NCBI RefSeq assembly: GCF_003590945.1
Contig: NZ_QYUK01000011.1
Span: forward strand, 1,392,001 to 1,456,000
Origin: Oleomonas cavernae
GTDB taxonomy: Bacteria; Pseudomonadota; Alphaproteobacteria; Zavarziniales; Zavarziniaceae
DNA length: 64,000 nucleotides
Direction: 5' to 3'
The position numbers and the translations under genes are program-made. The notes beneath the pieces are model-generated. The model ran no database searches, had not been told where the DNA came from, and was given only the letters and a program-made list of their open reading frames with translations. Shown piece by piece: positions 7,614-63,450 of this stretch (positions are counted from its first letter, which is position 1; each line of letters begins with the position of its first letter).

Positions 7614-10271
7614 ATGGCCGTTGACGTGTCCTACTCCCTGGTCCAGCAGGGGAACACCGAGTTTCTTTCCTTCGGCACATCGGCCAATGCGGATGTGGTC
7701 GGTTATGCCGATGGCGGCTTTGCCGTCGTGGCGGATTTCCCCGGCACTGCCGAGTCGACCCTCGTCACTTACAGCAGCCTCGGCAACCCGAGCGGCCAGT
7801 TCTTCCTCGACATGCTCGATCCGGCGGTGTCCCGGCTCGGTAATGGCGACGTCGTCATGGCGGCGGCGACCACGACGGACATCCAGGTCCTGATCGGCGA
7901 GGCGAACGGCGGCGCCATCGTCACCAGCGGTTCCATCAGCTTCTCGGGCGGCAGCGCCACGGACGTCGCCGGCCTCAAGGACGGCAGCAACCGCTATGTC
8001 GTCGCAAACCAGATCGAATTCGGCGGCTCGGACCGCGACATCCGGGTGACCATCGTCGACGGCATCAGCGTCGTCCTCAGTTTCCAGGTCGACGCCTCGA
8101 CGGCCGATGACCGGGCCCCCAGCATCGCCGCCCTGAACGACGGCGGCTTTGCCGTCGCCTGGGAGCGTCATGCCGGCGCCGAGACCGAGGTCTGGTACGC
8201 GGTCTACGAAGCCGGCGGCGCCGTCCGCAAGGCGCCGACGCTGCTCGATACCGATGGCACGATCAACCAGCATCCCAGCGTCACCGCGCTGGCCTCGGGC
8301 GGCTTTGTCGTTGCCTATGAGGACAACGAGTTTTTCGGCCAGCCCATCGGCATCAATCACCTGCAATTCTCGGCCGCAGGCGATGCCGTGGCCAGCTATC
8401 TCGGCGGGTCGATCTTCGCCGACAGCACCGATCCCAGTGCCACCACCCTGTCCAACGGCCTGCTGCTGACCAGCTTCACGGCGGCGGGGAACATCAGGGC
8501 CAGCCTCTTCGATCCGGCGGCTGGAAACCCGTTCCTGACCGATCTCGTCGATCCCTTCGTGATCGCGGGCAGCGGGGATGCCGAAACCCAGTCCGCCGTC
8601 TCCGCCCTGAACCTTGCGCGTGTCGTCGCGACCTACAAGTTGAACGACACTTTCATTGCCGAAGCCGTCTTCCAGCTGGAACGCACCACCTCGGGCGACG
8701 GGGATGCCAATGTGCTTGCGGGCGACGAGGCGGTCGACCGCATGTTCGGCGGCGGTGGCAACGACACGCTGGACGGCGGCGCCAACAATGACCGGCTCGA
8801 CGGTCAGGCCGGCGCCGACACGATGACCGGCGGCACGGGCGACGACGAATATGGCGTCGACGATGCCGGCGATGTGGTCGTCGAGGTTTCGGGCGGCGGC
8901 GACGATACGGTCAGGAGCGCCATCGACTACACGCTAGGCGCCAATCTGGAGCGTCTGATCCTGGAGGGCGGCGCCCTCGAGGGCATTGGCAACAGCCTGG
9001 CCAACGCCATCACCGGCAATGCCCTGGCCAATATCCTCAATGGCGGGCGCGGCGCCGACACCATGTCCGGCGGCAGCGGCAACGACATCTATGTCGTCGA
9101 CAACCTGGGAGACCAGGTCGTCGAGGGCGCCGGCGAGGGCATCGACCTCGTGCAGAGCTCGGCCACCCACACGCTTTCCGCCAATGTCGAGAACCTGCGC
9201 CTGACCGGCACTGCCTCGACGACCGGCACGGGTAACGCGCTCGATAACGGCATGACCGGCAACACCGCCGCCAACCGCCTGTTCGGCCTGGCCGGCATCG
9301 ACACGATCGGCGGCGGGGCCGGCAACGACACGCTCGAGGGCGGCGACGACGACGACGTTCTTTCGGGTGACGCGGGCGACGACACGCTGCTGGGGCAGGC
9401 CGGCAACGATACGCTCGATGGCGGCACCGGCAACGACAGCATGCGCGGCGGCACCGGCGACGACATCTACATCGTGGATTCGGTCGGCGATACGATCACC
9501 GAGGCCGGCGGCGGCGGCTTCGACACGGTGCGCAGCACCGTCAGCTTCACCCTGGGGAGCGGCCTGGACACCCTGGAACTGGTCACCAGCCAGGCGGTGG
9601 ACGGCACCGGCAACAGCCTTGCCAACACCATCACCGGCGGCGCCGGCGCCAATGTCCTGTCGGGCCTGGGCGGGGCCGACGCGCTGATCGGCAATTCGGG
9701 CAGCGATACGCTGGACGGCGGCACGGGTGCCGACACGATGACAGGCAATGCCGGCAACGACACCTATGTGGTCGACAATGCGGGCGACGCCGTCATCGAA
9801 GGGGCGAGCGGCGGCACCGACACGACCCGCGCCGGCATCAGCTACACCCTCACCGCCAATGTCGAAAACCTGGTGCAGACCGGCGCCGGCAACATCGCCG
9901 GCACGGGCAACAGCCTGGCCAACAGCCTCACCGGCAACAGCGGCGCCAACGCCTTGAACGGCGCCGACGGCAAGGACACGATCGACGGCAGGGCCGGGGC
10001 GGACACCCTCACCGGCGGGGCCGGCAACGACGTGTTCGTCTTCGAGGCGGAGCAGGCGAACGGCGATACGGTGATCGATTTCGACGGCAACGGCGCCTCG
10101 GCCGGGGACAGCCTGCGTTTCACCGGCTACGGCACGGCCGAGGATGGCGCTCTCTTCATCCAGCTCAATGCCACGCAATGGCTGATCGTCTCCTTCGGCG
10201 GCGGCATCCAGGACACCATCACTTTCGCCAACGCCGCCGCCATCCACGCCAGCGACTTCGTCTTCGTCTAA
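7614..10271 (+). CDS. RTX calcium-binding secreted protein
   Basis: 885 residues. Residues 1 to about 350 form a repetitive beta-rich domain with repeats like DGGFAVVADF, NDGGFAVAWE and SGGFVVAYEDN. Residues about 360-840 carry many glycine/aspartate nonapeptides of the GGxGxDxLx type (for example GGGGNDTLDGG, GGSGNDIYVVDN). These alternate with YTLGANLERL-like segments typical of bacterial RTX proteins. Such repeats bind calcium outside the cell, and the C-terminus (DTITFANAAAIHASDFVFV) resembles a type I secretion signal. There is no N-terminal Sec signal, as expected for that route. No catalytic domain was recognised, so it may be a surface-layer, adhesion or matrix protein. No type I exporter genes are nearby. 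An ATG with a GGGGA site 8 bases upstream sets the start. Confidence 0.85.
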   Translation: MAVDVSYSLVQQGNTEFLSFGTSANADVVGYADGGFAVVADFPGTAESTLVTYSSLGNPSGQFFLDMLDPAVSRLGNGDVVMAAATTTDIQVLIGEANGGAIVTSGSISFSGGSATDVAGLKDGSNRYVVANQIEFGGSDRDIRVTIVDGISVVLSFQVDASTADDRAPSIAALNDGGFAVAWERHAGAETEVWYAVYEAGGAVRKAPTLLDTDGTINQHPSVTALASGGFVVAYEDNEFFGQPIGINHLQFSAAGDAVASYLGGSIFADSTDPSATTLSNGLLLTSFTAAGNIRASLFDPAAGNPFLTDLVDPFVIAGSGDAETQSAVSALNLARVVATYKLNDTFIAEAVFQLERTTSGDGDANVLAGDEAVDRMFGGGGNDTLDGGANNDRLDGQAGADTMTGGTGDDEYGVDDAGDVVVEVSGGGDDTVRSAIDYTLGANLERLILEGGALEGIGNSLANAITGNALANILNGGRGADTMSGGSGNDIYVVDNLGDQVVEGAGEGIDLVQSSATHTLSANVENLRLTGTASTTGTGNALDNGMTGNTAANRLFGLAGIDTIGGGAGNDTLEGGDDDDVLSGDAGDDTLLGQAGNDTLDGGTGNDSMRGGTGDDIYIVDSVGDTITEAGGGGFDTVRSTVSFTLGSGLDTLELVTSQAVDGTGNSLANTITGGAGANVLSGLGGADALIGNSGSDTLDGGTGADTMTGNAGNDTYVVDNAGDAVIEGASGGTDTTRAGISYTLTANVENLVQTGAGNIAGTGNSLANSLTGNSGANALNGADGKDTIDGRAGADTLTGGAGNDVFVFEAEQANGDTVIDFDGNGASAGDSLRFTGYGTAEDGALFIQLNATQWLIVSFGGGIQDTITFANAAAIHASDFVFV

Positions 10272-12800: not shown

Positions 12801-13607
12801 TCAGGCCGTCCGGGCCACGATGATGCGGACCAGCGAGCGGCCGTTGGGCCGGTGGCTTTGCACATCACCGAAACCGGCCCGGCGGAGGTGAGCGACGGCA
12901 TCGGCATCGGTGGCAAAATGAATGGCAGCCCCGCTGCGGGAGATGACGCGCAGCCCCGCAGCCCCCGCCCTGGCCACCAGCCGCATCAGCGCCCGGTCCG
13001 GCACGGGGTAGGTTTCGGTCAGATAGGTGCCGGCCGGGAAGTGCTTCAGCGCGGCTACCAGGCGGCGCCAGAATCCGTCTGCGACAGGCAGCTGGAAATA
13101 GTTCATCAGGCCTTCGGTGATGACGGCGATCGGCCGGCCTCGGTCGAAGGCGGCGGCCAGCACCGCCTCCAGGCTGTGCTGACCCTCGGCCGCCAGGATG
13201 TCGATCGGCACCACCTTGTGTTCGGGCGACAGGCCTTCGACCTTGGCGAGCAGGGCCGATTTGGTCGCGGCCATCCGGGGCAGGTCGGCCTCGACATAGC
13301 GGATGCCCGGATGGCTTTGCGAGAAGCGATAGCCGCGGGCGGACAGGCCGCAGGCGATCTCCAACACCTGGGTTGCCGGCGCGCCGTCGAGGATCTCGCC
13401 CAGCAGCCGGTCCATGGTGGTGTGGCGCTCGACCAGCATGGCGTGCAGGTTGGTGCCCAGCAGCACCCTGCCCGCCCGTTCCGCCGGCGCCATGGCGCGG
13501 TACATGGCCTCGCCGGCACCGGTCTTCAGTTGCGGCAGGGAGAGCCCGTGTTCCTGCCAGGTCTGCGCCGTGTAGTGCGCCGTGAAACTGATCGACGAAC
13601 TGTCCAC
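12801..13607 (-). CDS. Class I SAM-dependent methyltransferase, LCM-like
   Basis: 268 residues. The SAM-binding motif I is VLEIACGLSARGYRFS (residues about 91-106). It is followed by the acidic loop YVEADLPRMAATK and the post-motif AVITEGLMNYFQL. These match the leucine carboxyl methyltransferase/Tcmp-type group in which motif I is followed by an ARG-like turn. Bacterial members of this group methylate various carboxyl or hydroxyl groups, and the substrate is not deducible here. Cytoplasmic. It ends 7 bp from the stop of the DUF1513-like gene (convergent) and is divergent from the VOC gene. Confidence 0.7.
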   Translation of the reverse strand: MDSSSISFTAHYTAQTWQEHGLSLPQLKTGAGEAMYRAMAPAERAGRVLLGTNLHAMLVERHTTMDRLLGEILDGAPATQVLEIACGLSARGYRFSQSHPGIRYVEADLPRMAATKSALLAKVEGLSPEHKVVPIDILAAEGQHSLEAVLAAAFDRGRPIAVITEGLMNYFQLPVADGFWRRLVAALKHFPAGTYLTETYPVPDRALMRLVARAGAAGLRVISRSGAAIHFATDADAVAHLRRAGFGDVQSHRPNGRSLVRIIVARTA

Positions 13608-13682
13608 CCTTGCTCTCCCCGGGTCTGTTGCGGCCGCTGCCGAAGGCCATCAAGCTAAAGCCAACAAGCCCGGGAGCCCAGG

Positions 13683-14063
13683 ATGATCGATCACGTTTCC
13701 ATCGCGGTCAGCGACCTTGCCAGGAGCACCGCCTTCTACGAGCAGGTGCTGGCGCCGCTGGGCCTCACGCTGATGGTTCCCTTCGAGGACAGGTCGGGCT
13801 TCGGCAAGCGCTATCCCGAATTCTGGCTGAACCTGCGGCCGGGCCTTGCCCCGGTGCCGCGCGACACCGGCATCCACATCTGCCTGCGCGCGCCCTCGGA
13901 CGAGGCGGTCAGCGCGTTCCACGCCGCGGCGCTGGCGAATGGCGGCGCCGATGCGGGCGAGCCCGGCCCGCGGCTAGCCGCCATGACCACCTATTTCGGC
14001 GCCTTCATCTTCGACCCCGACGGCAACAAGCTGGAAGCCGTGTGCTTCCCGAAGGCCGAATGA
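13683..14063 (+). CDS. VOC/glyoxalase-family protein
   Basis: 126 residues forming a single vicinal-oxygen-chelate unit: MIDHVSIAVSDLARSTAFYE at the start, a central HICLRAPS strand and the terminal FDPDGNKLEAVCF. His4, a mid-chain His (HICLR) and Glu near the end (LEAV) are the usual metal ligands of this fold. It belongs to the broad glyoxalase/bleomycin-resistance/dioxygenase group, so the reaction cannot be fixed. An ATG after CCAGG sets the start. mazG begins 31 bp downstream on the same strand. Confidence 0.75.
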   Translation: MIDHVSIAVSDLARSTAFYEQVLAPLGLTLMVPFEDRSGFGKRYPEFWLNLRPGLAPVPRDTGIHICLRAPSDEAVSAFHAAALANGGADAGEPGPRLAAMTTYFGAFIFDPDGNKLEAVCFPKAE

Positions 14064-14094
14064 CATGGCGGGACCATGCCGATAATCTAGCGCC

Positions 14095-14892
14095 ATGTCC
14101 GAGTCCGATCCCGCCAAGGCCCTGGCCGACCTTCTCGCCCTGATGGCGCGCCTGCGCGATCCCAAGGACGGTTGTCCGTGGGATGCGGTGCAGACGTTCG
14201 AAACCATCGCGCCCTATACGATCGAGGAGGCCTATGAGGTGGCCGACGCGATCACCCGGGGCGACATGGGCGAGCTCAAGGAAGAATTGGGCGACCTGCT
14301 GTTCCAGGTCGTCTTCCATGCCCGCATGGCGCAGGAGGCCGGGCATTTCGCGTTCGCCGACGTGGCCCAGGCGATCACCGCCAAGATGGTCGCCCGCCAC
14401 CCGCACGTCTACGGCGACGCGCAAGCCCACGATGCCGCCCTGTGGGAGGAGCGCAAGGCGGCGGAGCGGGCGGCAAAATCCAAGGGCGGCCTGCTGGACG
14501 ATGTCCCCCTGGCCCTGCCCGCCCTGCTGCGCGCGGTGAAACTGCAGAAGCGGGCCGCCCGCATCGGCTTCGACTGGCCCGACCTCGTCCCCGTCCTCGA
14601 CAAGCTCGAGGAGGAGATCCAGGAGCTGAAGGCCGAGATCGCCGCCAAGGCGCCGGTCGCGCGCCTGGAGGACGAGTTGGGCGACGTGCTGTTCGTCATC
14701 GCCAACGTGGCGCGGCACTTAGGCGTGGAGCCGGAATCCGCCCTGCGCTCGACCAATGCCAAGTTCGAGCGGCGCTTCCGCCATATCGAGATGCGCCTGG
14801 CCGAACAGGGCCTGGCCGGGCGCCAGGCCCTCGACCTGCTCGACGCCCTGTGGGACGAGGCCAAGGCCGAGGAACGCAAGGCCGCGGAATAG
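14095..14892 (+). CDS. mazG: Nucleoside triphosphate pyrophosphohydrolase MazG
   Basis: 265 residues, the normal length for two-domain MazG, which hydrolyses (d)NTPs to NMP and pyrophosphate. The N-terminal domain has CPWDAVQTFETIAPYTIEEA and ELKEELGDLLFQVVFHARMA, including the magnesium-binding EExxE...D arrangement. The C-terminal copy has FDWPDLVPVLDKLEEEIQEL and LEDELGDVLFVIANVARHLG. It is a housecleaning enzyme in the cytoplasm. In many alphaproteobacteria mazG is next to hflX. Here an RTX gene, a GST gene and a hydrolase gene lie between them. The stop is only 5 bp from the convergent RTX gene. Confidence 0.92.
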   Translation: MSESDPAKALADLLALMARLRDPKDGCPWDAVQTFETIAPYTIEEAYEVADAITRGDMGELKEELGDLLFQVVFHARMAQEAGHFAFADVAQAITAKMVARHPHVYGDAQAHDAALWEERKAAERAAKSKGGLLDDVPLALPALLRAVKLQKRAARIGFDWPDLVPVLDKLEEEIQELKAEIAAKAPVARLEDELGDVLFVIANVARHLGVEPESALRSTNAKFERRFRHIEMRLAEQGLAGRQALDLLDALWDEAKAEERKAAE

Positions 14893-34235: not shown

Positions 34236-35633
34236 CTAGATGTGAATGGCCCGGCCGTAAGCGTCAAGCACTGCCTCGTGCATCATTTCCGACAGGGTGG
34301 GATGCGGAAACACCGTGTGCATCAATTCTTCCTCGGTGGTTTCCAGCCCCATGGCGACCACAAAGCCTTGAATCAACTCGGTAACTTCGGCCCCGACCAT
34401 GTGTGCGCCCAGCAGTTGCCCGGTCTTGGCGTCGAATATGGTCTTCACCAACCCCTGGTCCTCGCCCAGCGCAATCGCCTTGCCGTTGCCGGTGAAGGGG
34501 AAGCGGCCGACCTTGACCGCGTAACCGGCTTCTTTGGCCTTCTTCTCCGTGAGGCCCACCGAGGCGATCTGCGGGTGGCAATAGGTGCAGCCGGGAATCT
34601 GCTCCTTCTTCATCGGGTGCGGGTTGAGGCCGGCGATGGCCTCGACGCAGATTACGCCCTCGTGCTCGGCCTTGTGGGCCAGCATGGGCGGGCCGGCGAC
34701 GTCGCCGATGGCATACAGACCGGGCACATTGGTGCGGCCGAAACCGTCGATCTTGATGCAGCCCTTCTCGGTCGCGACGCCCAAGGCCTCGAGCCCCAGG
34801 TTCTCGATATTGCCGACGACGCCGACGGCGGAGATCACCCGGTCGACGGTGATTTCGCTCTTGCCGCCCTTGGCATCCTCGATCGTGGCGGTGACGGTGT
34901 CGGCACCCTTCTTGAGGCCCAAGACCTTGGCGCCGGTCAGCACCTTCATGCCCTGCCTCTCGAAGCGCTTGCGGGCATGGGCGGCGATTTCCTCGTCCTC
35001 CACGGGCAGGATCTGCGGCAGGACTTCGACCACCGTCACTTCCGCCCCCATGGTGCGGTAGAAGCTGGCGAATTCGATGCCGATGGCACCCGACCCCACG
35101 ACCAGCAGCGACTTCGGCATGGCCTCGGGCACCATGGCCTCGAAATAGATCCAGACCAGCTTGCCGTCGCCCTCCAGGCCGGGCAGGTTGCGCGGGCGTG
35201 CGCCGGTCGCCACGATCAGGTGCTTGGCAGCGTAGTCGCCGACCGGCTTGCCATCCTTGGTGACGGAAACGCTGGTCGCGGCGGTCAGCTTGGCCTCGCC
35301 GTCGATCACCGTGATCTTGTTCTTCTTCATCAGGAAGGTGACGCCGCTGTTGAGCCGCTTGGCGACCCCGCGGGAGCGTTCGACGACCTTCTTGATGTCG
35401 AAGGAGACCTTCTCGGCCGACAGGCCGTAGTCGCCGGGATGGTTCATGTAATGAAACACCTCGGCCGAACGCAGCAGGGCCTTGGTCGGGATGCAGCCCC
35501 AATTGAGGCAGATGCCGCCCAGGTGCTTGCGCTCCACCACCGCGGTCTTGAGGCCCAGTTGCGCGGCGCGGATCGCCGCGACATAGCCGCCCGGCCCGCC
35601 GCCGACGACGATGACGTCGAATGTCTCAGCCAT
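34236..35633 (-). CDS. lpdA: Dihydrolipoyl dehydrogenase (E3)
   Basis: 465 residues. FAD-binding GGGPGGYVAAIRAAQLGLKT, redox disulfide GGICLNWGCIPTKAL, NAD-binding VVGSGAIGIEFASFY and the C-terminal interface HAHPTLSE-like stretch (VFPHPTLSEMMHEAVLD) with catalytic His. It reoxidises dihydrolipoamide in pyruvate dehydrogenase. A family-A palindromic repeat in the 113-bp gap separates it from pdhC, which may tune its level relative to E1/E2. Confidence 0.96.
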   Translation of the reverse strand: MAETFDVIVVGGGPGGYVAAIRAAQLGLKTAVVERKHLGGICLNWGCIPTKALLRSAEVFHYMNHPGDYGLSAEKVSFDIKKVVERSRGVAKRLNSGVTFLMKKNKITVIDGEAKLTAATSVSVTKDGKPVGDYAAKHLIVATGARPRNLPGLEGDGKLVWIYFEAMVPEAMPKSLLVVGSGAIGIEFASFYRTMGAEVTVVEVLPQILPVEDEEIAAHARKRFERQGMKVLTGAKVLGLKKGADTVTATIEDAKGGKSEITVDRVISAVGVVGNIENLGLEALGVATEKGCIKIDGFGRTNVPGLYAIGDVAGPPMLAHKAEHEGVICVEAIAGLNPHPMKKEQIPGCTYCHPQIASVGLTEKKAKEAGYAVKVGRFPFTGNGKAIALGEDQGLVKTIFDAKTGQLLGAHMVGAEVTELIQGFVVAMGLETTEEELMHTVFPHPTLSEMMHEAVLDAYGRAIHI

Positions 35634-39428: not shown

Positions 39429-39645
39429 CGGCGTCTCCTGCTGTCGTCGGCCCTTGATGGCCGCTCCGGGATCTGATGGAAGCGCAGATTAGTGAAACGC
39501 GCATGACGGACAACCGATTAAACGGCCACCCATGCAAATTTGCATGACTTGCTGCAGCGCAGCGTGCAGCACCATGCGGATCTCGGGAAAAAACTGTCAG
39601 ATCACCCTGTAGTCGCCCTCAGATCACCCCCGCCGCCCCCCTGTC
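39429..39645. other. Upstream region of the pdh operon
   Basis: No gene. It holds the 16-bp palindrome at 39531-39546. Just beyond it, arms TGCTGCA and TGCAGCA (39550-39571) face each other across 8 bases. The sequence TGCA recurs several times here, which suggests binding sites for a regulator of pdhA. Confidence 0.4.
39531..39546. promoter_or_regulatory. Perfect 16-bp palindrome upstream of pdhA
   Basis: CATGCAAATTTGCATG is fully self-complementary and lies 103 bp upstream of the pdhA ATG. It resembles the TTTGCA-type sites of short-chain-acyl-responsive HTH regulators, but the match is not exact. It is probably an operator for central-carbon control. Confidence 0.45.
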
Positions 39646-39742
39646 GTCATGCCCGGGCTTGTCCCGGGCATCCACGTCGGGACAGTGCAAGCTCGTTGAC
39701 GGAAGAGGCAGCTTGCCGACGTGGATGGCCGGGACTTCGCCC
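39646..39742. repeat. Composite repeat, family B copy 1, left part (interrupted by IS)
   Basis: Begins GTCATGCCCGGGCTTGTCCC and runs through GACGTGGATGGCCGGGACTTC to the IS boundary. The remaining GGCCATGAC is at 41026-41034 beyond the element. An uninterrupted copy at 46873-46978 shows the original sequence. Confidence 0.85.
39731..39742. repeat. Target-site duplication, left copy
   Basis: GGGACTTCGCCC directly abuts the left IS end and is repeated exactly at 41014-41025. The intact family B copy has this sequence only once. Confidence 0.9.
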
Positions 39743-41013
39743 ACGGCTGTCCGGTTTAGTTTTAGTGGACTGGTTGCACGGTGTTGATTCTACTCATGTT
39801 CAGACGTTGGCGCGTCTCCTGGACATGAAATCGGAGCAACACCGTGCGACACCACAATAGCGTTTTCCACGATCTGCTGAAGTGGGTTCCTTGGGATCGG
39901 TTCGAGCAACTGACCGCGGCGCATCAGGCCGATCGCCGGGTCCGGCGGCTGCCGACCAAGAGCCAGTTCATCGCCCTGCTGTACGGGCAATTGTCCGGCG
40001 CGAGCAGCCTGCGGGAGATCGTCGCGGGCCTGGAGAGCCATGCCGCGCGGCTCTATCACGTCGGCGGGCGTACGGTGTCGCGTTCGACCCTGGCCGACGC
40101 CAATGCCGGGCGCCCCAGTGAAGTGTTCAGCGCGTTGTTCGCCGCCATGGTCGCCGGTGCCGGGCGCGGCCTGCGCCGGGCCGTGGGTGAAGCCACCTAT
40201 CTCATCGACTCGACCAGCATCCGCCTGACCGGCGTGGCGGCAGAGTGGGCGCGCTTCTCAGCCAATGCCTGCGGCGCCAAGGCCCATGTCATCTACGACC
40301 CCGATGCCGACCGGCCGATCTATGCGGCGGTCACCCCGGCCAAGGTCAACGACATCACCGCGGCCCAGGCCATGCCCATCGAAGCGGGGGCGACCTATGT
40401 CTTCGACCTGGGCTACTACGACTACGCCTGGTGGGCCGGGCTGGACGCCGCCGGGTGCCGCATCGTCACGCGCTTCAAGTCCAACACGCCCTTGACGGTG
40501 ACCGCCGAACGGCCGCTGCCCGAGGGCGCTGCCAACATCCTGTCCGACCGCGTCGGCCTGCTGCCGCGGCGCCAGGCCACGAACCGCAAGAACCCGTTCT
40601 CCGCCCCCGTCCGCGAGGTCTGCATCACGATCGAAACCGGCAAGGTGCTGCGCCTCCTGAGCAACGATCTCGATGCCAGCGCCCAGGAAATCGCCGACCT
40701 CTACAAGCGGCGCTGGGCCATCGAGCTGTTCTTCCGCTGGGTCAAGCAGACCTTGAAGATCCGCCGCTTTCTCGGCACCAGCGAGAACGCGGTCCGCATT
40801 CAGGTTGCCGTCGCCTTGATCGCCTTCCTGCTGTTGCGCCTGGCCCAGGCCGCCCAGCAAACGGTTCAAAGCCCGCTCGCCTTCGCCCGCCTGGTGCGCG
40901 CAAACCTCATGCACCGCCGACGGCTCGACCGGCTAATCGGGGCCGAGCCAAGACAACGCATCGACCCCAACCAGATGAGCTGGCTATGAGCGTAATCTTA
41001 ACCGGACAGCCGT
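39743..41013 (+). mobile_element. IS4-family insertion sequence, 1271 bp, complete
   Basis: The ends are 14-bp perfect inverted repeats: ACGGCTGTCCGGTT at 39743-39756 and its complement AACCGGACAGCCGT at 41000-41013, with weaker similarity inward. A 12-bp direct repeat GGGACTTCGCCC flanks it (39731-39742, 41014-41025). One transposase gene fills it. Intact ends, intact gene and perfect duplication suggest a recent insertion that may still be mobile. It landed in a palindromic intergenic repeat and disrupts no gene. Confidence 0.92.
39844..40989 (+). CDS. IS4-family transposase
   Basis: 381 residues. An N-terminal DUF4372-type region (SVFHDLLKWVPWDRFEQL, RRLPTKSQFIALLYGQLSGA) precedes the DDE domain. 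The first Asp is in TYLIDSTSIRL, the second in YVFDLGYYDYAWW, and the Glu lies in the YREK-type motif YKRRWAIELFFRWVKQTLK. GTG start with a GGAG site 8 bp upstream. The reading frame is complete, so the protein is probably active. It catalyses cut-and-paste movement of the 1271-bp element. Confidence 0.93.
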   Translation: MRHHNSVFHDLLKWVPWDRFEQLTAAHQADRRVRRLPTKSQFIALLYGQLSGASSLREIVAGLESHAARLYHVGGRTVSRSTLADANAGRPSEVFSALFAAMVAGAGRGLRRAVGEATYLIDSTSIRLTGVAAEWARFSANACGAKAHVIYDPDADRPIYAAVTPAKVNDITAAQAMPIEAGATYVFDLGYYDYAWWAGLDAAGCRIVTRFKSNTPLTVTAERPLPEGAANILSDRVGLLPRRQATNRKNPFSAPVREVCITIETGKVLRLLSNDLDASAQEIADLYKRRWAIELFFRWVKQTLKIRRFLGTSENAVRIQVAVALIAFLLLRLAQAAQQTVQSPLAFARLVRANLMHRRRLDRLIGAEPRQRIDPNQMSWL

Positions 41014-41025
41014 GGGACTTCGCCC
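41014..41025. repeat. Target-site duplication, right copy
   Basis: GGGACTTCGCCC directly follows the right inverted repeat of the IS. GGCCATGAC of the broken family B repeat continues after it. Confidence 0.9.
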
Positions 41026-41083
41026 GGCCATGACGAAGAGAGCAGTGCGTAAAGGAGGCTCGGCGGCCCGACAGGCGCCGCCA

Positions 41084-41398
41084 TCACTGCGGATTGAGGA
41101 TGACCACGTCGTTCTCGTGGGCGAAGCCCAGGGTGACGCGCGCCCGCTCCTCGATCATGTCGCGATCGAGGCTTTCGGGGCGCAGCAGGGACACGCGGCG
41201 TTCCAGCGCCTCCCGCTGCTCGGAAACCTGCGCCAGTTGCGCCTTGGTCTCCTCGATCTCATGGCTGAGGCGCAGCCACGACACCAGCCCATAGTCGCCC
41301 TGCACCAGGTGATAGCCGAAATACCCGGTCACACAGATCGCCACCACCGGCACGATGGCCTGGCGCGTCCGACGGCGAAGTTCATTGGCGAGAGTCAT
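41084..41398 (-). CDS. ftsB: Septum formation initiator FtsB/DivIC
   Basis: 104 residues. A single membrane segment (QAIVPVVAICVTGYFGYHLV) is followed by a coiled coil (RLSHEIEETKAQLAQVSEQR, EALERRVSLLRPESLDRDMI) and the short C-terminal motif EERARVTLGFAHENDVVI. FtsB links FtsL/FtsQ to the divisome. The usual position between eno and pdhA is kept, but an IS lies on its pdhA side and other genes on its eno side. Its ATG overlaps the stop of an atypical membrane-protein gene by ATGA. Confidence 0.88.
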   Translation of the reverse strand: MTLANELRRRTRQAIVPVVAICVTGYFGYHLVQGDYGLVSWLRLSHEIEETKAQLAQVSEQREALERRVSLLRPESLDRDMIEERARVTLGFAHENDVVILNPQ

Positions 41399-42300
41399 GG
41401 GCGGATTGAATCATGAGCGGATTCAGCGGTCAATTGATTCCGCCATCTTACAAACAAACTATAGACGATCGTGACAATCGCAGTGACTGGAAGCATTACC
41501 AGCGCCGTCTCCTTAAAATTAAAACCAACCCAAAACAGAATCTCGCCGGGGATGTGTGTATGGGGGAATGCGTGCTCCCAGGGGTACCTGAGTGAATGCA
41601 ATAGGATTGCAAGCACATGTATCATTACCGCCGCCATAAACGCTGCAAGCAAGGCTTTCTGAATCCCAGGCCCCGGCTCATTCCAGAATACACCGAGCCA
41701 CACGACCGCCGGCATAGTAAGCAACGAAATCCACACTGATTCTTGATTTGTATTATGGATAACAAAATAATCGTCAAATATGTTGGCCGTCAAACCAAGG
41801 GAAAGGCCGAGCAGCAGTCCGTAGATGACCGCATTTCGTAACAGTACCGTTAATGAAAATGGGAATATTTCCCTACTTATCTCGCTTAAGGCCTGCTTTC
41901 GTCTTACCAGAAATGAGCAACCAAAGGCGATCAACGCAAGGAACGGAAGCGCGCGCGACACATCTCTAGCCACAAAAAGGACCTCATACAAAATGCCATG
42001 GTGTGCATCGGCAGGCGTCAGCAGCCATGTTAACCAAAGGAAGATCGCTGGCGTAGCAATTGCCGCGGCGGCACCGATGATCAGCGATCGCTGCCAAGGC
42101 TGGTTTACCGGCGACGCAAACGCAAACCAGCAGAACAAACCCGCTAGGAAGCACGGTACAAACGCTTTGAGAGGTGTGCTCCAATGCGGGTGACCGCCAG
42201 CAAAAAGATAAACTGCCACCAAGAAGCCGATAGTAGGCAATACCGCAAAAAGTAATCCAAAGATGGCGCTGTCGAACAAGTGCCTAGCGATACTGCGCAT
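41395..42300 (-). CDS. Multi-pass membrane protein of unknown function, atypical composition
   Basis: 301 residues with about seven to eight hydrophobic segments (FGLLFAVLPTIGFLVAVYLF, AFVPCFLAGLFCWFAFA, SLIIGAAAAIATPAIFLWLT, FLALIAFGCSFLV and more). I recognise no family or motif. The DNA is clearly less GC-rich than its neighbours, and many codons end in A or T, so recent acquisition is likely. Its last four bases overlap the ftsB start (ATGA), which implies that ftsB translation is coupled to it or that it landed precisely between ftsB and its former promoter. No transport or enzyme function can be claimed. Confidence 0.65.
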   Translation of the reverse strand: MRSIARHLFDSAIFGLLFAVLPTIGFLVAVYLFAGGHPHWSTPLKAFVPCFLAGLFCWFAFASPVNQPWQRSLIIGAAAAIATPAIFLWLTWLLTPADAHHGILYEVLFVARDVSRALPFLALIAFGCSFLVRRKQALSEISREIFPFSLTVLLRNAVIYGLLLGLSLGLTANIFDDYFVIHNTNQESVWISLLTMPAVVWLGVFWNEPGPGIQKALLAAFMAAVMIHVLAILLHSLRYPWEHAFPHTHIPGEILFWVGFNFKETALVMLPVTAIVTIVYSLFVRWRNQLTAESAHDSIRP

Positions 42301-42570: not shown

Positions 42571-43608
42571 GTGGTCGGGACACAGATGCCTCGCGTCAAG
42601 ATACGCGGCCTGACCAAGATCTTCGGGACGAAGATCGATCCCGCCCTGCGCCTGGTCGATGACGGCGCCTCGCGCGCCGATATCCTGGCCGCCACCGGCT
42701 GCGTCGTCGGCCTGCGCAATGTCAGTTTCGATGTCGCCGAGGGCGAGATCCTGGTGGTCATGGGCCTGTCGGGCAGCGGCAAGTCGACCGCGCTGCGCTG
42801 TATCAACCGCCTGATCGAGCCGACCAGCGGCGGCGTCACCGTCGGCACCCAAGAGGTGATGGCACTGGATCCCAAGGCCCTGCTGGCCTTCCGCCGCAAG
42901 ACATTCGGCATGGTGTTCCAGCAGTTCGCCCTGTTTCCCCACCGCAGCATCCTGCGTAATGCCGAATACGGCTTGGAGATCCAGGGGGTGGCGCCTGAGA
43001 TCCGCAAGGCCAAGGCCCTGGCCGCGCTCGAACAGGTCGGCCTCAAGGGCTGGGAAGACCGCTACCCCTCCCAGCTTTCGGGCGGCATGCAGCAGCGCGC
43101 GGGCCTGGCCCGGGCGCTGGCGGTCGACACCGACATCCTGCTGATGGACGAGGCCTTCTCGGCCCTCGACCCGTTGATCCGGCGCGACATGCAGCAGGAA
43201 CTGGTCACGTTGCAGAAGAAGTTGAAGAAGACGATCATCTTCGTCTCCCACGATCTCGACGAGGCGGTGGCCCTGGGCGGGCGGATCGTGCTGATGCGCG
43301 ACGGCGAGATCGTCCAGGACGGCACCGCCATCGACCTGCTGACCAGCCCGGCCGACGACTATGTCCGCCGCTTCACCAGCCACCTCGACGTGCTGGGCGT
43401 GATCACCGCCGGCGCCATCATGCGGCCCCTCAACGGTGTCGCCGCGGCCCCGGCGACGCGCGTGGCCGCGGCCATGACCCTGCACGAGGTGCTGGGCGCC
43501 CTGGACACCGCCGGCGGCGAGATCGGCGTGCAGGACGGCGGGCACCTGGTCGGCCTGATCGGTGCCCACGACTTGATCACCGCGCTGGCTGCGCGCGGCC
43601 AGGCATAG
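42571..43608 (+). CDS. proV: Glycine betaine/proline-type ABC transporter ATP-binding protein
   Basis: 345 residues. Walker A GLSGSGKST (65-73), Q-loop QQF (117-119), signature LSGGMQQR (169-176), Walker B LLMDEAFSALD (190-200) and H-loop His227. N- and C-terminal extensions match the ProV/OpuAA/ChoV group for quaternary amines. The GTG at 42571 follows AGGGGGAA; an ATG at 42586 has no such site. First gene of a three-gene importer. It is divergent from the atypical membrane gene over a 270-bp spacer in which I saw no further gene. Confidence 0.9.
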   Translation: MVGTQMPRVKIRGLTKIFGTKIDPALRLVDDGASRADILAATGCVVGLRNVSFDVAEGEILVVMGLSGSGKSTALRCINRLIEPTSGGVTVGTQEVMALDPKALLAFRRKTFGMVFQQFALFPHRSILRNAEYGLEIQGVAPEIRKAKALAALEQVGLKGWEDRYPSQLSGGMQQRAGLARALAVDTDILLMDEAFSALDPLIRRDMQQELVTLQKKLKKTIIFVSHDLDEAVALGGRIVLMRDGEIVQDGTAIDLLTSPADDYVRRFTSHLDVLGVITAGAIMRPLNGVAAAPATRVAAAMTLHEVLGALDTAGGEIGVQDGGHLVGLIGAHDLITALAARGQA

Positions 43609-43617
43609 GAGCGGGTG

Positions 43618-44478
43618 ATGGACTGGACCGTGCCGAAATTCCCGCTCGACGAGCTCAGCGACCAGGCCCTGGACTGGTTGACCACGCAGTTCTCAGGGCT
43701 CACCCGCGCCATCTCCCACATCGTCGCCGACTGGATCGATGTCGCGAGCACCGCCATCGCCGGCCTGCCGCCCTGGGCCACCATCCTGGTGATCGCGGCC
43801 GTGGTCTGGCGCCTCACCACCTTGCGCATCGCCGTGCTCACCCTCGCCGGCTTCCTGTTCCTGTGGAACCTGGAATTGTGGCGCGCCACGGTGCAGTCGC
43901 TGGTGCTGGTGCTGTTCTCCACCGCCGCGGCCCTGGCGATCGGCATTCCCATCGGCATCTTCGCAGCGCTCAACCGCCGGGTCTGGCGCACGATCAGCCC
44001 CCTGCTGGACATGATGCAGACCATGCCCAGCTTCGTGTACCTGATCCCGGCCATTCCCTTCTTCGGCCTGGGCGCGGTCTCGGCCGCCTTTGCCACCATT
44101 GTCTTCGCCATGCCGCCGACCATCCGCCTGACGGCGCTGGGCATCATCGAGACGCCCACTGCCTTGGTCGAGGCGGCGGACGCCTTCGGTTCCAGCCGGA
44201 TGCAGAAGCTGGTGAAGGTGCAACTGCCCCTGGCCGTGCCCACCATCCTGGCCGGCGTCAACCAGACCATCATGCTGGCCCTGTCGATGGTGGTCATCTC
44301 GGCCATGATCGGCGCCGGCGGCCTGGGCGGCGAGGTCTGGCGCGCCATCCAGCGGCTGGAGGCCGGCAAGGGCTTCGAGGCCGGCATCGCCATCGTCATC
44401 CTCGCGGTCATCCTCGACCGCGTTACCCAGCACGTTGCCAAGCGCATGCGCGGCGACAGGCAGACCCAAGAGTCCTGA
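43618..44478 (+). CDS. proW: Glycine betaine/proline-type ABC transporter permease
   Basis: 286 residues with a cytoplasmic/periplasmic N-terminal part and about six membrane helices. The binding-protein-dependent permease core includes LVLVLFSTAAALAIGIPIGI and the EAA-type loop EAADAFGSSRMQKLVKVQLP. The ATG at 43618 is favoured over GTG 43615 because AGGAG is at the right distance. It lies 9 bp after the ATPase gene, and the binding-protein gene starts 26 bp later. Confidence 0.9.
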   Translation: MDWTVPKFPLDELSDQALDWLTTQFSGLTRAISHIVADWIDVASTAIAGLPPWATILVIAAVVWRLTTLRIAVLTLAGFLFLWNLELWRATVQSLVLVLFSTAAALAIGIPIGIFAALNRRVWRTISPLLDMMQTMPSFVYLIPAIPFFGLGAVSAAFATIVFAMPPTIRLTALGIIETPTALVEAADAFGSSRMQKLVKVQLPLAVPTILAGVNQTIMLALSMVVISAMIGAGGLGGEVWRAIQRLEAGKGFEAGIAIVILAVILDRVTQHVAKRMRGDRQTQES

Positions 44479-44504
44479 CCCACCCAACCCCCAAGAGGCC
44501 TGCA

Positions 44505-45359
44505 ATGCTGAACGGAATGCTGAAACGACTTTCTGCCGCGGCGCTGGGCCTCGGCCTGCTCGCCGGTGCCACTGCCGCCCAGGCGGCGGACAAGTCCCTG
44601 ACCATCGCCTATGTCGAATGGTCGGATGCGGTCGTCGCCACCAACGTCATCAAGACGGTGCTGGAAGACAAGGGCTACAAGGTCAAGATCGTGCCGCTGT
44701 CGGGCGCCGCCATGTGGCAGGCCGTGGCCACGGGCGAGGCCGATGCCATGGTCGCCGCCTGGCTGCCCGCCACCCACCAGGCCTATTTCGAGAAGCTGAA
44801 GGACAAGGTCGTCGACCTGGGCCCCAACGTCACCGGGGCCAAGATCGGCTGGGCCGTGCCGACCTACCTGACCGACATCAACTCGATCGAGGACCTCAAG
44901 GGTCACGAGGACGCGGTGGGCGCCAAGATCATCGGCATCGATCCGGGCGCCGGCCTCATGCGCGCCTCGGAAAAGGCGATCAAGGACTATGACCTGAAGG
45001 TGAAGCTGGTCGAGGGATCGGATGCCACCATGGTCGGCGCGCTGAAGGATGCCTATGCCAAGAAGGAGCCGATCGTCGTCACCACCTGGACGCCGCATTG
45101 GATGTTCGCGACCTGGCAGCTCAAGTACCTGGCCGATCCCAAGGCCTCGTTCGGCGGCGAAGAGACGGTGAACACGGTGGTGCGCCTGGGCCTCGACAAG
45201 GACCAGCCGGAAGCCTACGCCATCCTCAACGCCTTCGCGCTTAGCCTCGACGACGAGCAGAAGGTCATGGTCTGGAACAACGAAGCCGGCGCCGACCCGG
45301 CCGCCACCGCCCGCAAGTGGGTGGACGAGAACAAGGACAAGGTCGCCGCCTGGAAGTGA
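44505..45359 (+). CDS. proX: Glycine betaine/proline-type substrate-binding protein
   Basis: 284 residues. A Sec signal peptide (LSAAALGLGLLAGATAAQAA, cut after AQA) is followed by an OpuAC-type binding fold with YVEWSDAVVATNVIKTVLED, AAWLPATHQAYFEKL and VVTTWTPHWMFATW. Several aromatic residues fit a cage for a quaternary ammonium group, so glycine betaine, choline or proline betaine are likely ligands. It delivers ligand to the permease/ATPase encoded upstream, probably for osmoprotection or as a nutrient. A strong terminator follows. Confidence 0.88.
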   Translation: MLNGMLKRLSAAALGLGLLAGATAAQAADKSLTIAYVEWSDAVVATNVIKTVLEDKGYKVKIVPLSGAAMWQAVATGEADAMVAAWLPATHQAYFEKLKDKVVDLGPNVTGAKIGWAVPTYLTDINSIEDLKGHEDAVGAKIIGIDPGAGLMRASEKAIKDYDLKVKLVEGSDATMVGALKDAYAKKEPIVVTTWTPHWMFATWQLKYLADPKASFGGEETVNTVVRLGLDKDQPEAYAILNAFALSLDDEQKVMVWNNEAGADPAATARKWVDENKDKVAAWK

Positions 45360-45528: not shown

Positions 45529-46818
<1,290 letters not shown>

Positions 46819-46872
46819 TCAATTGTGCCGTGTCATCTCTCGGCGCGAGGGCGCTGATCGGGAAAAACCATC

Positions 46873-46978
46873 GTCATGACCGGGCCTGTCCCGGTCATCC
46901 ACGTCGGGACAGTGCACGTCCGTTGACGGAAGAGGCAGCTTGCCGACGTGGATGGCCGGGACTTCGCCCGGCCATGAC
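46873..46978. repeat. Composite repeat, family B copy 2 (intact)
   Basis: Starts GTCATGACCGGGCCTGTCCC and ends GATGGCCGGGACTTCGCCCGGCCATGAC. It lies between pyrG and eno and gives the uninterrupted form of the repeat struck by the IS. Confidence 0.85.
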
Positions 46979-63296: not shown

Positions 63297-63403
63297 GTCA
63301 TGGCCGGGCGAAGTCCCGGCCATCCACGTCGACAAGCTGCCTCTTTCGTCAACGGACTTGACTGTGTCCCGACGTGGATGCCCGGCACAAGGCCGGGCAT
63401 GAC
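63297..63403. repeat. Composite repeat, family B copy 3
   Basis: GTCATGGCCGGGCGAAGTCC at the left and CGACGTGGATGCCCGGC...GGGCATGAC at the right: the reverse orientation of the copies at 39646 and 46873. It lies between the convergent lexA and comEC genes, with a degraded family A fragment just before it (about 63246-63265). Confidence 0.8.
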
Positions 63404-63450
63404 GATCGAGAGGGGATCCAAGGTTCCAGCCCACGAGCCGGACAGGCCTC

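Follow-up and report, generated by a model that had tools for sequence, protein, structure and literature searches.

The sequence analysed here (the window) is a 64,000-nucleotide stretch of the Oleomonas cavernae genome (contig NZ_QYUK01000011.1, positions 1,392,001 to 1,456,000), and its subject is the cell-division gene ftsB together with the open reading frame (ORF) directly upstream of it on the same strand, a 301-residue membrane-protein gene that we label X. The last bases of X overlap the ftsB ATG in an ATGA stop/start (Table 1); this arrangement, proposed in an initial annotation of the window, was verified from the ORF. We think it likely that X, a member of a fast-diverging membrane-protein family, lies in a variable interval between eno and ftsB and ends inside an older, independent ftsB promoter carrying GANTC sites, from which ftsB would be expressed as a leaderless message.

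Gene X

X has a GC content of 0.501 (0.543 at third codon positions), compared to a mean of 0.662 in a 464 kb sample of this genome, made up of the window and a further 400 kb out of 5.64 Mb. Among the 283 ORFs of more than 200 codons in this sample X ranks last in GC, and a GC content as low occurs in one of 4451 sliding windows. Its codon adaptation index is 0.304, versus 0.715 for ftsB and 0.793 for eno. The description of X as unlike its neighbours in composition and codon use is therefore accurate, as is its description as an unrecognised protein: nothing scored above the curated cut-off in Pfam, NCBIfam or PADLOC, the best match in PHROGs had an E-value of only 0.1, and no relative was found in PDB, plasmids, phages, IMG/VR or GTDB contigs. 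A low-confidence structure model built from the single sequence contains eight helices. Based on this weak model and on the alignment of single-unit relatives, and with no repeat detectable, X is probably an inner-membrane protein of two four-helix units.

A conserved promoter-like element at the end of X

The initial annotation suggested that X may control translation of ftsB, and set against this the alternative of an independent ftsB promoter within X. That alternative is largely what we find, in the form of a conserved prediction, and the proposed control is not supported: the last 12 codons of X contain a promoter-like core, TTGACC-N3-GAATC-N7-GATTC, which begins 35 nt before the ftsB ATG. 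Four GANTC (CcrM-type) sites cluster here, at -42, -26, -14 and +2 relative to the ATG; the background in the window is 1.34 sites per kb. The 40-45 nt preceding ftsB are conserved among congeners although the upstream genes are wholly different, and in the genus the core reads TTGAC (TTGAT in Z. aquatilis), followed in most genomes by the inner GAATC and then by a GATTC that begins 13-15 nt before the ATG.

Beyond the genus, the motif TTGA[CT]-N15-19-GATTC, with its first base 34-40 nt upstream of the ATG, was present at 17 of 30 ftsB loci (30 of 36 matches), 11 of the 17 with an inner GANTC, and at 14 of 23 further loci, these being the best-scoring new ones among 163 matching genomes; in total 31 of 53 alphaproteobacterial loci carry it. 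The ATG nearest the aligned start was taken as the start codon, and a few distances may be off; one locus whose motif falls just beyond the accepted distance (G045) was scored as a miss. Misses in the first 30 loci often come from small genomes. Across the 464 kb sample, the core occurs twice and the form with two GANTC sites once, at ftsB.

This element would act as a sigma-70-type promoter, and it very probably works without X. The 3' end of X would run into a much older ftsB promoter, whose sequence would double as the final 12 codons of the gene.

Possible control by CcrM and GcrA

A set of 96 cell-cycle-regulated starts has been described with GANTC within 50 bp upstream (PMC4287350). The O. 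cavernae sites at -42, -26 and -14 fall within a similar core promoter range, reaching to about 50 bp ahead of the start, and are conserved in relatives. GcrA is a sigma-70 cofactor at methylated promoters, for which the motif YGAKTCG has been given (PMC7987155, citing Haakonsen et al. 2015); the motif is quoted there for Caulobacter and was not recovered in Brevundimonas (PMC7987155). GcrA (PF07750) was detected in all six genus genomes, O. cavernae included. The RAMA domain of CcrM (PF18755), the domain and not the full protein being what was searched for, was detected in five of the six, again including O. cavernae; the miss is a 75%-complete genome.

Together, the GANTC sites, GcrA and the CcrM-type domain suggest that ftsB transcription is clocked by methylation. 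Transcription would probably start at the sigma-70-type promoter, with its timing set by CcrM methylation and GcrA. The arrangement resembles the CcrM/GcrA sigma-70 promoters of Caulobacter (ctrA P1, mipZ, ftsZ, ftsN), given that this genus too has genes for GcrA and a CcrM-type domain. It differs from them in that the predicted ftsB promoter extends over the 3' coding end of a different gene, would leave no leader and lacks a match to YGAKTCG. Essential CcrM-responsive Caulobacter genes listed in Table 1 of PMC3973325 include ftsZ, ftsN, mipZ and ftsW, and ftsB is absent from that table. In Hyphomonas neptunium ftsB is likewise under a cell-cycle regulator, but this is CtrA, and the passage on ftsB makes no mention of GANTC (PMC7200025). 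Searches of the open-access literature, supplementary tables excepted, turned up no description of GANTC-bearing promoters at ftsB; a term search of PMC3667746 and PMC2877005 returned nothing on ftsB.

A probably leaderless ftsB and a likely origin of the overlap

None of AGGA, GGAG or GAGG occurs within 20 nt of the ATG at any of the 17 motif-bearing ftsB loci of the first set, and the 20 nt upstream of ftsB in O. cavernae lack them. Because it has no Shine-Dalgarno sequence, the ftsB message is probably leaderless; a -35-like hexamer located at -35 and a -10 element around -14 would put transcription initiation close to the ATG. We take the ATGA overlap to be a by-product, explained by the reading frames through the promoter. 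Their first stops lie at -34, -27 and +1, so that only the frame of X is open throughout, and it ends at the ATGA; any gene that enters from upstream in this frame is bound to stop at the same point as X. The last family member in Z. marina, which stops at -14, likewise uses the latest-stopping frame. The overlap is thus no evidence of evolved coupling.

The eno-ftsB interval and the family of X

Four congeners, referred to under the genus name Zavarzinia, have a readable ftsB locus: Z. marina (G001), Z. aquatilis (G004), a Zavarzinia metagenome-assembled genome (G003) and G002. In G003, eno and ftsB adjoin, less than 200 bp apart, as they also do in two other families (G022, G007), and eno is likely the ancestral upstream neighbour of ftsB. 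The interval measures 4.1 kb in O. cavernae, where it holds proVWX-like genes and X, and 4.4 kb in Z. marina, where it ends with three same-strand membrane ORFs. In Z. aquatilis eno and ftsB share a strand and are ~25 kb apart; in G002 the distance is ~54 kb and eno is on the opposite strand. The gene upstream of the promoter is accordingly eno in G003, a parC-like gene in Z. aquatilis, an M48-protease-like gene in G002 and a member of the X family in Z. marina. Immediately before the ftsB promoter the genus thus has a recurrent breakpoint, at which the neighbours differ by species (G000, G001, G002, G004).

No close relative of X was found in 40 related genomes searched with X itself. Distant relatives were identified in two congeners. 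In G002, a tandem array of membrane ORFs of 141-163 residues lies between lpd-like and xerC-like genes, and its second ORF (r2) is clearly related to X (local-alignment Z 9.2, score reached by 0 of 500 shuffles that preserve the hydropathy-class pattern; BLASTP 4e-7 as a single comparison); the first and third ORFs gave Z 2.7 and 0.6. Further hydrophobic, possibly broken ORFs are present beside this array (L121, 3798-5306). Of the Z. marina ORFs, G001c and G001b gave Z 5.2 and 4.5, with 1 and 0 of 500 shuffles reaching the score, and hhalign aligned X with its Z. marina relatives at E 2.5e-4; seven control membrane proteins all remained below Z 1. Thirty sources supplied 2028 stop-to-stop ORFs with a minimum length of 130 residues, 49 of them hydrophobic; when X was aligned locally with these 49, its four best non-self scores belonged to G002 r2 (94), G001c (87), G001b (75) and G001a (59); the next best was 56, a small margin for the fourth. 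In a phmmer search of all 2028 ORFs only the G002 ORF stood out (E 3.4e-4), and the Z. marina ORFs (E 0.4 to 5.5) ranked behind two others, L033:14625-15098 (E 0.054) and 34585-35058 of the window (E 0.24), which were rejected as apparent reverse-strand shadows in the pdh region with no Pfam match. The sequence kinship of X with the G002 array is firm, and that with Z. marina is supported jointly by shuffle, profile and position evidence.

A profile built from X and the two larger Z. marina relatives, run against overlapping sets of 60, 385 and 398 genomes, gave clear matches only in O. cavernae and Z. marina, with short, weak matches in G050, G046, G040, G003, G132, G223 and G408. This profile did not pick up the G002 array at E 0.1 (the array came from a weak match to X alone, E 0.0115), so that absence of the family elsewhere is not proven. 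The relatives are ~17-27% identical to X; a seven-row family alignment, badly gapped, was used for identities and a few invariant positions only. On these comparisons the X family appears to be fast-changing and tandem-forming, and it has so far been seen only in this genus.

Orphan immunity proteins form arrays of tandem, fast-diverging, patchily distributed genes of low codon adaptation. The X family is similar in all four respects, a likeness of style only, and differs in having no toxin and no homology to a named immunity family. Since the family is patchy, tandem and fast-changing, with no conserved catalytic residue seen, our best guess for X, held with low confidence, is a protective, immunity-type membrane protein.

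As for the foreign origin first proposed for X, its composition is indeed foreign-like. The proposal loses force through the presence of relatives in two congeners, with one array lying at exactly the same position. The members at the ftsB site, too, have low codon adaptation. Foreign origin remains plausible, and is not the whole story. Vertical inheritance beside ftsB, the alternative named with it, is seen in a weak form only, the same family occupying the same site in one of the four congeners.

Weighing the explanations

Several observations count against the interpretation favoured here. The core motif is not universal, being absent from 22 of the 53 ftsB loci, and a scan for consensus promoters did not report the ftsB site. 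The extended GcrA motif is unmatched at ftsB in O. cavernae, where the sites read TGATTCA and TGAATCC; some other ftsB loci do read TGATTCG (e.g., G043, G091 and G086). The structure model of X is poor (mean predicted local distance difference test score, pLDDT, 53.8), and comparison of its two halves detected no internal repeat (Z 0.14). Simple descent of X in place is doubtful, because its relatives are so divergent while core proteins are 87-93% identical. Finally, a long X-ftsB transcript with re-initiation at the ATGA is conceivable.

This last point leads to an explanation that we judge possible but distinctly less likely, in which ftsB has its own clocked promoter and also receives a constant share of its message by read-through from X, with re-initiation at the ATGA. 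X and ftsB lie on the same strand with no gap, and terminator-like sites are at chance level (3 found, 2.2 expected), both as read-through would have it. Yet the scanned stretch upstream of X yielded no sigma-70 consensus promoter, and X may therefore be little transcribed; within X a single promoter-like site turned up, no more than chance would give.

A similarly tentative place is given to an ancestral origin, in which X stood beside ftsB in the genus ancestor, was lost in several species and diverged very fast, its AT-richness being a family trait. Z. marina has a family member at the same site and in the same orientation, and all three of its members combine lower GC (0.588-0.604, versus 0.654 for that stretch) with lower codon adaptation. 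On the other hand, X is ~22% identical to its Z. marina counterpart, versus about 88% for core proteins (87-89% between O. cavernae and four congeners; 92.2% for G005, from eno alone), eno and ftsB adjoin in G003, and X and the Z. marina gene meet the promoter at different points. Given the identity gap, X may have been inherited in place or may have arrived separately.

That X is a recently acquired foreign gene, with ftsB translated only as ribosomes finish X at the ATGA, we consider improbable. The overlap, the missing Shine-Dalgarno sequence before ftsB and the AT-rich, poorly adapted X would all fit; however, a native promoter-like element is kept inside X, ftsB lacks a Shine-Dalgarno sequence also in congeners that have no overlapping gene, and the Z. 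marina member stops short of the ATG. Least credible by far is that X is a random open frame in AT-rich DNA and no gene, as its failure to match any database might suggest, since the probability of the frame staying open at X's own composition is ~3e-6, a Shine-Dalgarno-like site precedes it, and it aligns along its length with membrane proteins of congeners.

Neighbouring features

Coordinates of the features discussed are collected in Table 1; the names eno, pdhA, proVWX, parC-like, M48-like, lpd-like and xerC-like were read from translations and not from family searches. The ftsB product scored 60.9 bits against its Pfam model (cut-off 28.9), which places it in the DivIC/FtsB family.

Table 1. 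Positions of features at the O. cavernae ftsB locus and of X-family ORFs in two congeners
Feature	Position	Strand	Basis or remarks
ftsB (DivIC family), no Shine-Dalgarno, probably leaderless	41084..41398	-	Pfam PF04977, E 1e-16
Cluster of four GANTC (CcrM-type) sites	41392..41440	-	relative to ftsB ATG, see text
ATGA stop/start overlap, X/ftsB	41395..41398	-	TGA 41397-41395, ftsB ATG 41398-41396
X, AT-rich gene for a polytopic membrane protein (301 aa)	41395..42300	-	ORF list, composition, helices of low-confidence model
Predicted ftsB promoter core	41408..41433	-	conservation at ftsB loci
Shine-Dalgarno-like GAGGT just before X ATG	42310-42306	-	sequence reading
Divergent proVWX-like ATP-binding cassette transporter genes, remainder of the ftsB-eno interval	42571..45359	+	ORFs, translations
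eno	45529..46803	-	translation reading
Z. marina X-family ORFs	L035: 7635-8114, 8203-9072, 9069-9989	same strand	last ends 11 nt before ftsB
G002 array, lpd-xerC interval	L121: 5493-6879		second ORF clearly related to X

An insertion sequence had been placed beyond ftsB, and an IS4-family transposase gene does lie on the far side of ftsB from X. The element (39725-41031) is situated between pdhA and ftsB and has imperfect inverted repeats at 39725-39762 and 40994-41031. A partly palindromic repeat of ~100 bp is dispersed at 39644-39742, 46871-46969 and 63306-63405, and also in L071, L075 and L076, most copies being 88-94% identical to each other. Elsewhere in the same genome, the stretch L080 contains two more strongly AT-rich ORFs (13355-14236 and 8580-9872, GC 0.505 and 0.547); with several low-GC genes, it is perhaps an island. 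There is no tRNA in the window, and no Rfam family near the X/ftsB site.

Implications

The conserved promoter in which X ends is a more interesting object than the coupling of X to ftsB. If that promoter is real, the locus would illustrate how a gene may come to adjoin an essential one and leave it undisturbed, its end falling within a promoter that stays whole, and it would caution against reading translational coupling from an ATGA overlap alone. We see an even chance that the pattern is general, with ftsB widely methylation-clocked and leaderless in Alphaproteobacteria, its GANTC sites often paired at a spacing of 11-12 bp and set at a constant distance from the start codon, and with the Zavarzinia membrane family abutting this promoter such that promoter selection would have written the C-terminal 12 residues of X. 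Should the predicted promoter prove correct, a divisome gene whose cell-cycle control in Alphaproteobacteria has been little described would gain a testable control site in many families.
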